From an uncultured Acidimicrobiaceae bacterium (lineage in GTDB: Bacteria > Actinomycetota > Acidimicrobiia > Spongiisociales > UBA5794), in assembly GCA_947259365.1 (NCBI GenBank), contig CAMYMC010000005.1, positions 3,651 to 67,650 of the forward strand: 64,000 bases of DNA. Direction: 5' to 3'. Positions within the stretch are counted from its first letter, which is position 1; each line of letters starts with the position of its first letter. The notes beneath the pieces were generated by a model. The model did not search any database. It was not told the origin of the DNA and saw nothing but the letters and a program-made list of their open reading frames with translations. Positions 19,819 to 22,711 of this stretch are shown here, piece by piece. The translations under genes were made by a program, and so were the position numbers.

Positions 19819-19985
19819 GGACCGCTGTGGGGTGGCGCCGGCCCTGCGGCGGCGCCCGCCCGGCCGCTACGCTCGCGCTCAGCCGGGCGGCAGCTGCGGC
19901 GGCACCATCGCACGACGAACGGCCCGCCTCGGCCCGGCGGCCCGACACAGGCGCCCGATGACCGGCGAGCGGAGGAGCGGGGCCG

Positions 19986-20765
19986 ATGACGGATCAAGCC
20001 TTTCTCGTAGATGTCGACGTGCTGCGGACTGAGGTGCAGAAGCACTACGCGGAGGTCGCCGAAACTCCCGATGGCGAGTTCCACTTCCACACCGGGCGCC
20101 GCGCCGCCGAGCAGGTCGGATACGACCCGGCGTTGTTCGAGGGGCTGGCGGACGCGGCCGTCGAGGCGTTCGCCGGGGTCGCGAACCCATTTGCCTGGGG
20201 CGTTCCCCGCGCGGGGGAACGCGTCGTCGACATCGGCTCCGGCTCAGGGGTCGACTCGGTGATCGCGGCGCGGGCGGTGGGATCGGCCGGCAGTGTGGTC
20301 GGCGTGGACATGACGGCACCGATGCTGGAGCGCGCCCGCAACCTCGCCGCGTCGCTCGGCCTCGACAACGTCGAGTTCCGCGAAGGTCTCGCCGAGAAGC
20401 TTCCTGTTCCCGATGGCTGGGCCGACCTCGTCATTTCGAACGGTGTCCTCAACCTCGTCCCCGACAAGGTTGGCGCCTACCGCGAGGTCTTCCGCGTCCT
20501 GCGACCCGGAGGGCGCATCCAGATCGCCGATGTGTGCGTCGACCGCGACGTCCCGGAGTCGGCGAAACGCGACATCGATCTCTGGACCGGCTGAATCGCT
20601 GGTGCCCTGCCGTGCGCAGGGTGGACGGCGATCATCGAAGGCGTCGGCTTCGCGGGTCTCGAGTTCGGCTCACCGGTCGACACCTACGAGGGCGCCTCTG
20701 GGGAGAAGAACGCTCGCACGTTCGGTGTGCTCGGTCATGCGTTCACGGCGGCGAAACCGGTGTGA
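19986..20765 (+). CDS. SAM-dependent methyltransferase, candidate selenoprotein (Sec at residue 203)
   Basis: A class I methyltransferase of the ArsM-like group with motif I VDIGSGSGVD (81-90), acidic motif VVGVDMTAPMLERAR and post-motif LRPGGRIQIADVCVD. The frame reaches TGA at 20592-20594 and then runs 56 more codons to TGA 20763-20765. The continuation is family-like: LWTG-U-IAGALPCAGW, IIEGVGFAGLEFG, ending FTAAKP. Homologues, from memory, have Cys at this site (LW-x-G-C-x-x-GAL), equal to an As-binding Cys of ArsM. A hairpin right after the TGA fits a bacterial SECIS. The ribosome site GGAGCGG precedes ATG 19986. Read as an ordinary stop, the protein would be 202 aa and lack its C-terminal domain. 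Substrate unknown; the other ArsM cysteines are not evident. Confidence 0.75.
20592..20632 (+). promoter_or_regulatory. Candidate bacterial SECIS element with its UGA codon
   Basis: Directly after TGA 20592-20594, GCCCTGC (20604-20610) pairs with GCAGGGT (20616-20622) around loop CGTGC. ATCGC (20595-20599) pairs with GCGAT (20628-20632) as an outer helix. The loop begins 16 nt after the TGA and contains the G-U expected for SelB binding. The distance agrees with known bacterial SECIS spacing. Confidence 0.65.
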
Positions 20766-20888: not shown

Positions 20889-21377
20889 ATGAGCCGTGGT
20901 TCTGGCACGCGCATGAACAGGCGGAGGTTTCTGAGGAGAGGTGCAGCGGGGGCGGGTCTCACCGCCGCCGCACTCGCCTCACCCGGGATGGTCGGTGCGG
21001 CTGCGGCGCATCGCGGCGTTCTGCACCTGCGGGTCGTCGCCGACGTCGCAGCGCTCGACGTGATACCGAGCCCGACCTTTGCCGGTCAAGGGCCCTTCTA
21101 CGTCCCGGGGACGATCTACACCCCGGACATGAGTCAGCAGCTCGGGGTCTTCCACTGCTGGGGGTTCTTCTTCACCGCTCAGGGAGATGCGGTCGTCGCC
21201 CAGGAGTTCGACCTCGATGGCAGAGGCAAGATCCAGGTGCAGGGGGTCGAGGACGAGGGCCCGCGGGCGGTCACCGGCGGTACCGGGGAGTTCCGCAACG
21301 TGCGGGGCGAGATGACCGGCGCCGACCTGTCGGCCTTCCCCGACTTCACGGTGAGCTTCAAGCTCATCGGCGGCTGA
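20889..21377 (+). CDS. Secreted allene-oxide-cyclase-like barrel protein
   Basis: A 162-aa exported protein. The N-terminus holds a twin-arginine signal (NRRRFLRRGAAGAGLTAAAL), so it is probably folded before export by Tat. The mature domain has the dirigent/allene-oxide-cyclase-like pattern: VLHLRVVADVAALDVIPSP, GVFHCWGFFFTAQGD, VVAQEFDLDGRGKIQVQG and the family signature TGGTGEFRNVRGEMTG. The ATG at 20889 follows GAGGAGG; a second ATG at 20913 also precedes the Arg pair. Bacterial members have no known reaction. It lies behind a hairpin-free gap downstream of the candidate selenoprotein. Confidence 0.75.
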   Translation: MSRGSGTRMNRRRFLRRGAAGAGLTAAALASPGMVGAAAAHRGVLHLRVVADVAALDVIPSPTFAGQGPFYVPGTIYTPDMSQQLGVFHCWGFFFTAQGDAVVAQEFDLDGRGKIQVQGVEDEGPRAVTGGTGEFRNVRGEMTGADLSAFPDFTVSFKLIGG

Positions 21378-21448: not shown

Positions 21449-22711
21449 CTAGTCGACGAGCGCCGGCATCTCCGTCGCTTCGCGGAGCCCGGCGACGTAG
21501 AGCCAGATCCCGGTGAGCAGTGCGACGCCGAGGATCGGGGTGCCGATGCGCTTCAACACCGCGACGTCGATGAGGAGGCCGAGCACGAAGAATGCAAGCC
21601 CGACGTTGATCCCGGTGAGCACCCACCACCCCTGCCGACCGGGCAAGACGATGGCAGCGGCGATGAGCCCGAACGTCACCATCGCGATCGAGCCGACGAA
21701 GTTCATGTGGTCGAGGGCGAGGATGAGGCCGCGGGGGATGTCCTCGAAGTCGAGCCACGTCTCGGTGACGATGCCGATGATGAGCACGGCGAGGGCGACG
21801 AGGCCGCCGATGAGCCAGATCGTCGCCAGCCTTGCATAGAGCGTGTGGAGCGACTCCAGCCATCGTCTCGGGGCGAGCTCGCGCCGCATTCGCACGATGA
21901 AGATGACGATGCCGATGACCTCGAGCGGCACGTTGAGAGCGGCGATGTCGAAGTTGTCGGCGAGGATGCCGACGAGGACTGCGATCCCGGCGAGGAACAC
22001 GAGCACCACCTGGATCACCCCGGCCCGGTCCGAGCGCACCATCCGGGGCTCGTCGCTGATGAGCCACTCGATGAGGGCGAGGCCCCCGAGGACGAGATAG
22101 CCGATGATCATCGTGGCCGGATGGGACTCCCCGATTCTGGACCCGACCTCATCCGACACCCCGGGCAGCGACCCCTCGGAGACGAAGATGCCGAGGAGGA
22201 TCCCGAACACCGCGCCGAGGACGAGACTCACCAGGGCGAGGAACATCCCCAGCTGGGCAACCGTGATGCTGCGGCTGCGCATCCGGGCCACGACCCAACT
22301 GAACAGCCAGGCGACGGCGACGAACACGAGCGTGCCGGCGATCGGCCGCAAGATCCCCTGGGTGAACGCGAAGGCAACGATGTAGAGGCCGATGGCGACG
22401 GCCATGGCGATGCCGACCCGTCGCGCCTGCTCACCGACGGCGGCGTCGACCTCCTTCCCCCCGGTGAACATCCGGAACACACCGGCGACGATCGACAGAG
22501 TGATGAACCCGAGCGTCCCCGCATGGAGATGGGTGAGCAGGGTCTGTCTCCCTGCGTCCCCGACGACGTCGATCGCGCCGTCGCTCTCCTCGGAGAACGC
22601 GATGAGGTCGATCCCGTTGGCGATCCCGATGAGGATCGTGATGACGAAGATGCTCAGCGCCGTCGTATAGAGGACGCGTGACACACGCCAGATGGCAGCC
22701 CGGCCGTCCAT
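21449..22711 (-). CDS. Polytopic membrane protein, heme-copper-oxidase-subunit-I-like
   Basis: A 420-aa protein with about twelve membrane helices. Conserved-looking histidines lie inside helices: LLTHLHAGTLGFITLSIVAG (helix ~2), GESHPATMIIGYLVLGGLAL (middle) and LALDHMNFVGSIAMVTFGLI (late). This spacing recalls the heme-ligand helices of NorB/cbb3-type subunit I and NnrS-like proteins. It is followed 94 bp upstream by a cytochrome c gene on the same strand, which supports an electron-transfer role. No classic six-His heme-copper set could be confirmed, so this is a family suggestion only. A ribosome site AAGGAG precedes the ATG at 22711. Confidence 0.55.
   Translation of the reverse strand: MDGRAAIWRVSRVLYTTALSIFVITILIGIANGIDLIAFSEESDGAIDVVGDAGRQTLLTHLHAGTLGFITLSIVAGVFRMFTGGKEVDAAVGEQARRVGIAMAVAIGLYIVAFAFTQGILRPIAGTLVFVAVAWLFSWVVARMRSRSITVAQLGMFLALVSLVLGAVFGILLGIFVSEGSLPGVSDEVGSRIGESHPATMIIGYLVLGGLALIEWLISDEPRMVRSDRAGVIQVVLVFLAGIAVLVGILADNFDIAALNVPLEVIGIVIFIVRMRRELAPRRWLESLHTLYARLATIWLIGGLVALAVLIIGIVTETWLDFEDIPRGLILALDHMNFVGSIAMVTFGLIAAAIVLPGRQGWWVLTGINVGLAFFVLGLLIDVAVLKRIGTPILGVALLTGIWLYVAGLREATEMPALVD

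Follow-up and report, generated by a model that had tools for sequence, protein, structure and literature searches.

The window (the whole stretch of DNA analysed here, 64,000 nucleotides) carries on its forward strand what is very probably a genuine bacterial selenoprotein gene, as genome content, codon conservation and RNA covariation together suggest. SelB and Sec-tRNA would decode its UGA codon at 20592 as selenocysteine 203 (Sec203), directed by a hairpin just downstream. The product would be a stand-alone SAM methyltransferase with the ArsM fold, in which Sec replaces the last of the three metalloid-binding cysteines of ArsM and the other two are absent. Most likely one soft selenolate is presented beside the methyl group of SAM. 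A soft atom held on the Sec203 selenolate would then be methylated, in place of the chelation of As(III) by three thiolates.

Gene-calling software for which TGA is only ever a stop would report a 202-residue methyltransferase here. Reading UGA as selenocysteine changes that call for the whole family.

Probable reading of UGA as selenocysteine

The frame starts with ATG at 19986, meets a TGA at residue 203 and reopens for 56 codons until a second TGA (Table 1), so the coordinates bear out the interrupted frame that had been described from the letters. GC3 is 0.84 upstream and 0.79 downstream of the first TGA. The open stretch alone is not evidence, because 1485 of 5000 mononucleotide shuffles of the 600 nt after this TGA stay open for at least 56 codons. 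Hence we rejected a case built on the open frame. The signal above chance is the comparison with relatives: their alignments cross the TGA without a break, the column holds either TGA or a cysteine codon, and Ile-Ala-Gly follows the TGA. The case for selenocysteine rests on genome content, this comparison and the RNA.

Table 1. Features of the candidate selenoprotein gene, in window positions
Feature	Position	Strand	Basis
GGAGGA, putative ribosome-binding site	19971..19976	+	9 nt 5' of ATG; read from the sequence
Predicted Sec-methyltransferase CDS, 259 residues + stop, codon 203 UGA as Sec	19986..20765	+	family match, alignments
Val65 codon = CmArsM Cys72 / human AS3MT Cys61 column	20178..20180	+	PDB alignment
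DIGSGSGVD, residues 82-90, which we take to be the SAM-binding motif	20229..20255	+	D82, G86, D90 invariant (set A2)
Gly153 codon = CmArsM Cys174 / AS3MT Cys156 column	20442..20444	+	PDB alignment
UGA, predicted selenocysteine codon 203 = CmArsM Cys224 / AS3MT Cys206 column	20592..20594	+	alignments, codon counts
Predicted extended stem-loop from UGA: lower stem + apical hairpin	20592..20634	+	predicted fold
Predicted SECIS apical hairpin, 7 bp, loop CGUGC, G second in loop	20604..20622	+	fold, covariation, recodings
TGA as probable true stop	20763..20765	+	alignments of close relatives end at ~258-260; their frames stop within a few codons

We collected 52 related loci and further ones from 60 genomes (the window's own included) and aligned 82 loci. 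Thirteen, whose alignment fell short of column 203, were left out and 69 kept; one locus (L069) is a copy of the window and was counted once, as the window. Codon 203 is TGA in 38 of these 69 loci (window copy included) and TGC or TGT in 31. In all 38 TGA genes the codon is followed by I204-A205-G206. A larger set of 121 distinct loci, the window and fetched neighbourhoods included, in which identical 120-nt contexts were merged and near-identical ones kept separate, has TGA 61 times, TGC 48 times, TGT 12 times and nothing else. Column 203 thus holds Cys or Sec only (TGA 61 versus TGC/TGT 60), as the homologue alignment suggested by the sequence-only reading was meant to establish, and the in-frame UGA has family sequence on both sides. 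In a phylum sample of 396 genomes (own included), 35 matches are listed with scores of at least 253 bits; 26 of them have a single in-frame TGA, and the other 9 have no such codon. By their record labels, the TGA members belong to Actinomycetota, Chloroflexota, Acidobacteriota, Nitrospirota, Nitrospinota, Gemmatimonadota, KSB1 and Proteobacteria.

The genome that contains the window (3.34 Mb, 94% complete) encodes tRNA-Sec, SelA, SelB and SelD, all four components that the earlier reading had proposed to look for. tRNA-Sec scores 72.9 bits against a cut-off of 47, and ARAGORN calls it tRNA-SeC with anticodon tca. It appears with equal scores at two contig ends (L001 and L002, on C37 and C41 of G000), perhaps as one gene at an assembly break. 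selB (321.3 bits, cut-off 242.25) adjoins selA (343.3 bits). selD (390.9 bits; L016, G000:C37:25583-26506) carries an in-frame TGA of its own; SelD proteins that contain selenocysteine are known. Since SelA occurs in 53 of the 60 genomes (own included), the lineage commonly decodes selenocysteine. Therefore co-occurrence with the gene carries no information and the mere presence of the machinery counts for little, and we dropped co-occurrence as an argument. In one relative (L137) the Sec-methyltransferase lies beside genes that, in our reading of their translations, are selB, selA and selD, at +213 to +4639 from the TGA.

A hairpin with its loop 16 nt after the TGA and with a G-U pair had been described, and it is present. 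Its 7-bp stem pairs 20604-20610 with 20616-20622, encloses the loop at 20611-20615 and has one closing G-U. The segment 20592-20640 folds at an MFE of -23.6, compared to -15.7 +/- 2.7 for shuffles, of which 3 of 200 fold as well. The lower stem of the extended stem-loop varies among relatives. In a gapless alignment of 48 columns from the 38 TGA genes, 98.8% of 252 cells are paired in the 20604-20622 structure. Covariation, measured on related and thus not independent sequences, scores 0.383, compared to 0.192 for shuffles, none of which (0 of 500) gets as high, and to 0.013-0.080 for slid positions of the structure. Changes on both sides are seen in three pairs, a number that 31 of 500 shuffles attain as well, and a measure of further pair types is reached by 71 of 500.

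Because the encoded peptide constrains the RNA, we used synonymous recodings as a comparison. At the 5% level the hairpin beats its recodings in 32 of 38 TGA genes and in none of the 31 Cys genes; for the pooled set the figures are 45 of 61 versus 3 of 60. The hairpin of the window itself is borderline (29/500; 51/1000) and is counted with the 16 of 61 TGA genes that are not significant. Three others of these 16 (L028, L054 and L056) have LPRAGW in place of LPCAGW; L028 and L056 come from Pseudonocardia strains. A shift of the apical stem in these three was considered and dropped, since L028 when folded still has its loop in register. A G in the small loop is a feature of bacterial SECIS elements in the accessible part of PMC1088965, and the predicted element has it. 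The SECIS claim is therefore upheld by covariation and by the contrast between TGA and Cys genes, with the window's own hairpin borderline.

An account without selenocysteine would have the frame broken by an assembly error or by decay into a pseudogene, or would have a natural protein of 202 residues end at the TGA. It could point to the frequency with which 56 codons stay open by chance in GC-rich DNA, and to two relatives (G003:C155 and G020:C81) that match in two split frames, with one TGA in the longer piece, and are either decaying copies or frame errors. The TGA, however, is common to 60 other distinct loci, for which reason we reject a sequencing error or a pseudogene, and the column is otherwise always Cys. 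With the complete Sec machinery and the covariation of the hairpin also against it, we regard this account as highly improbable. Selenocysteine as the probable residue 203, the central proposal of the sequence-only reading, is strongly supported by machinery, column counts and SECIS.

An ArsM fold without two of its cysteines

Both domain and fold place the protein among the class I SAM methyltransferases. It matches PF13847 with 114.2 bits (cut-off 27), and its AlphaFold model has a pLDDT of 93.8 and a pTM of 0.92. The 13 best Foldseek matches are all ArsM/AS3MT chains, which are the nearest solved structures by sequence as well as by fold.

In the PDB alignment Sec203 corresponds to Cys224 of CmArsM (Cys206 of AS3MT), confirming that residue 203 falls on a metalloid-binding cysteine site of ArsM. 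Gly153 corresponds to Cys174 and Val65 to Cys72. All 38 TGA genes and all 6 Cys orthologues have Gly at column 153, where each of the 25 canonical sequences has Cys. A fetched set, which overlaps the first, gives Gly in 38 of 38 subfamily members and Cys in 20 of 20 canonical ones. At column 65 the 38 TGA genes have V (13), I (2), T (18), M (2), D (1) or a gap (2) and no Cys. Cys occupies this column in 0 of 6 Cys orthologues versus 25 of 25 canonical sequences. Residues H33-F-H35 form a further conserved segment. The impression that the other ArsM cysteines are missing was correct, with Gly153 and mostly V/T65 in their places. In CmArsM, neither methylation step proceeds without C174 or without C224, and the first step also requires C72 (PMC3877260, in the portion available). 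The loss of two of the three As ligands therefore argues against ordinary As(III) methylation. The sequence-only reading also suggested that a Sec here might bind As, Se or Hg more strongly.

The name ArsM does not fit the protein, which scores 204.6 on the ArsM model NF008823 (cut-off 263) and has one of the three As-binding cysteines, as Sec. Six relatives score 202.5-233.0, so that 7 of 7 proteins scored are below the cut-off. With two of three As ligands gone, caution is due in naming such proteins ArsM. A quick tree of 131 rows needs 2 changes for the split between Gly and Cys at column 153 and 6 for Sec/Cys; its Gly label comes from a motif search, rows of a second paralogue (see below) were set to Gly outright, and its support is SH-aLRT only. 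Judged by sequence, the subfamily is separate from canonical ArsM.

The same genome also has an all-Cys ArsM (L190, on G000:C15) that passes NF008823 with 309.5 bits. The two proteins share the superfamily, and the GCIAGAL motif of the all-Cys ArsM is likewise in common. Unlike the window protein, the all-Cys ArsM has SCCG, LGCGNP, SNCV and GC motifs. Similarly, CmArsM, CrArsM and human AS3MT (4fr0, 6cx6, 5evj, 8xt7) share with the window protein the fold and the alignment at the Cys224/Cys206 column. The window protein differs from these chains in having no Cys at the Cys72/61 and Cys174/156 columns and in its length, 259 residues versus 321-387.

The gene had been put forward as a candidate new selenoprotein. 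The selenoprotein stands, but its kind is already known, because selenocysteine-containing arsenite methyltransferases are catalogued. One is in the table of a 2008 GOS survey (PMC2398784, an excerpt). The table of a 2026 review (PMC13188914, partial text) lists an arsenite methyltransferase as "UxxG, 1 Sec" together with further fused families, and the same partial text identifies WP_011987699.1, filed under NF008823, as a Sec-containing arsenite methyltransferase with UxxG. That entry, like the window protein with its U203-I-A-G, is of ArsM type with one Sec; compared by the partial description only, the window protein differs in falling below the NF008823 cut-off and in having neither of the other two As-ligand cysteines. 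An extract of PMC2375036 lists a Sec methyltransferase in algae.

In NCBIfam the fused relatives are NF041537 (ArsM_AhpD_UU), NF041536 (ArsM_DUF2284_UU) and NF047649 (MTase_UXPK_star), which the available text of PMC13188914 lists with two or three Sec. Together with NF008823 they are the best-scoring NCBIfam models for the methyltransferase part, NF041537 ranking top in 7 of 7 subfamily proteins. The window protein scores 230.2, 215.4 and 196.1 bits on the three fusion models, far below their cut-offs of 510, 575 and 460, and has no second domain. At 345, 459 and 283 positions the three models exceed the window protein in length, and the matches stop at residue 223-228 of 259 (226 for NF041537). 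The stand-alone Gly153 protein passes no NCBIfam cut-off among the 25 of 42 matching families listed. A search of the 396 genomes for NF041537 fusions (E 1e-85), meant to show whether Gly153 also occurs in their methyltransferase part, gave no matches; its control matched nowhere either, so the empty result is no sign of their absence. In the literature searched, partly available as excerpts, we found no description of the Gly153 Sec subfamily, which the Haft papers may describe. The accessible part of PMC1242214 has nothing on a Sec-methyltransferase family, and in PMC12013277 neither methyltransferase nor arsenite occurs. Thus the kind is known, but the stand-alone Gly153 protein is, on alignment and family scores, a subfamily of its own.

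Neighbouring genes and possible substrates

Neighbouring genes were counted up to about 5 kb where contigs allowed, around 38 subfamily and 20 canonical ArsM loci (mean span 8.7-9.7 kb). Near subfamily versus canonical loci we found DsrE-like (8/0), OsmC (8/0), rhodanese-ArsR (8/1), MBL (6/0), MFS (9/0), ECF-sigma-like (12/0), anti-sigma-like (11/0), antibiotic-monooxygenase-like (4/0) and Sulf_transp (1/0) genes. These contrasts are inflated because the seeds were taken from the subfamily loci and the locus that supplied a seed is itself scored as a hit; the Fisher values (0.02-0.14) are modest and carry no correction. The sigma and anti-sigma names come from reading translations, not from a family search.

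Pfam finds rhodanese with an ArsR HTH in L023 and L030, DsrE in L032, OsmC in L042 and Sulf_transp in L049. Neither Pfam nor NCBIfam has a match for the DsrE-like protein of L030, and NCBIfam has none for its counterpart in L042. For the MBL proteins (L023, L053), hydroxyacylglutathione hydrolase is a better fit than bifunctional sulfur transferase/dioxygenase, and neither score reaches its cut-off. Three Cys orthologues (L042, L044, L051) have a common C-terminal extension, the likeness in L044 and L051 being judged by eye. In L042 the extension matches TusA (PF01206) with 28.6 bits, exactly at the cut-off, and the NCBIfam TusA model with 26.4 bits of the 78 required. Since the PF01206 match is limited to profile positions 13-65, it leaves the start of the profile uncovered, where we take the characteristic TusA motif to lie. 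DsrE-like and OsmC genes lie just downstream of the L042 gene.

At least 10 of the 38 subfamily loci contain a second methyltransferase that has diverged and carries AWAG(U/C)(V/I/L)(A/S)GA as its motif, often with ECF-sigma-like and anti-sigma-like genes, possibly as a two-selenoprotein cassette. Seven have TGA at the U/C position (L133, L135, L136, L139, L142, L143, L156) and three TGC (L144, L145, L150). A query with residues 1-100 of the second L136 paralogue against the window's own genome retrieved nothing beyond the canonical ArsM, the gene in the window and one weak match. The window gene is surrounded by mostly metabolic genes: CoA-transferases, a FAS1_DH-type dehydratase, cytochrome c, isochorismatase, SnoaL-like, MBL and patatin genes. 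Among them is no clearly sulfane-sulfur gene and no ECF-sigma cassette with a second Sec-methyltransferase; as a clue to function they have no clear link.

With a single soft ligand left, three-thiolate capture of As(III) is unlikely. The enzyme might instead be a chalcogen methyltransferase, in which Sec203 would take sulfane sulfur or selenium as Se-S(-) from carriers of the rhodanese, DsrE or TusA type and SAM would methylate it, yielding the thiol or selenol in methylated form as a means of detoxification or export. The missing As ligands are consistent with this tentative reading, and so are the DsrE-like, OsmC, rhodanese-ArsR, MBL and MFS genes that are commoner near subfamily than near canonical loci, the Pfam-confirmed rhodanese, DsrE, OsmC and Sulf_transp near L023, L030, L032, L042 and L049, and the TusA-like extension of L042, with L044 and L051 alike. 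However, the same counts are seed-biased and uncorrected, two of the DsrE-like proteins lack family matches (L030 in Pfam and NCBIfam, L042 in NCBIfam), the MBL proteins are closer to hydroxyacylglutathione hydrolase, the TusA match is partial, and no neighbour in the window clearly handles sulfane sulfur. We consider it about as likely as the chalcogen reading that the substrate is still arsenic (or Hg, Te, Sb) and that Sec improves the binding of a trivalent metalloid carried by glutathione or a similar thiol. Against it stand the Gly that all 38 TGA genes have at the C174 column and the lack of any Cys at the C72 column, as CmArsM needs both cysteines (PMC3877260, in part), and also the 7 of 7 scores below NF008823 and the separate all-Cys ArsM in the genome. 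It gains from ArsM being the best match in fold and sequence, from the Sec-containing arsenite methyltransferase in the partial text of PMC13188914, and from ArsR/SmtB-type regulators near some relatives. A further reading, which we consider unlikely, is that the enzyme belongs to a response to redox stress under the control of an ECF sigma factor and methylates a thiol or selenol that is either organic or bound to protein. Here the ECF-sigma-like (12 of 38) and anti-sigma-like genes (11 of 38), both absent from the 20 canonical loci, and the second Sec- or Cys-methyltransferase would fit, but seed bias and names read from translations weaken the counts, and none of these genes was seen in the window.

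Sulfane sulfur or another soft chalcogen as the substrate is a bold guess. In its fullest form, to which we give a low probability, the subfamily would have left arsenic chemistry: an ArsM-fold selenolate would methylate sulfane sulfur or selenium from DsrE-, TusA- or rhodanese-type carriers, in some actinobacteria beside a second Sec-methyltransferase under an ECF sigma/anti-sigma pair. If sulfane sulfur were the substrate, selenocysteine would have a role in methyl transfer to sulfur.

Two other genes of the window encode a 420-residue protein that looks membrane-bound and for which no Pfam family exceeds the cut-off (21449-22711, reverse strand) and a secreted-looking protein with a weak Dirigent match only (20889-21377, forward strand).
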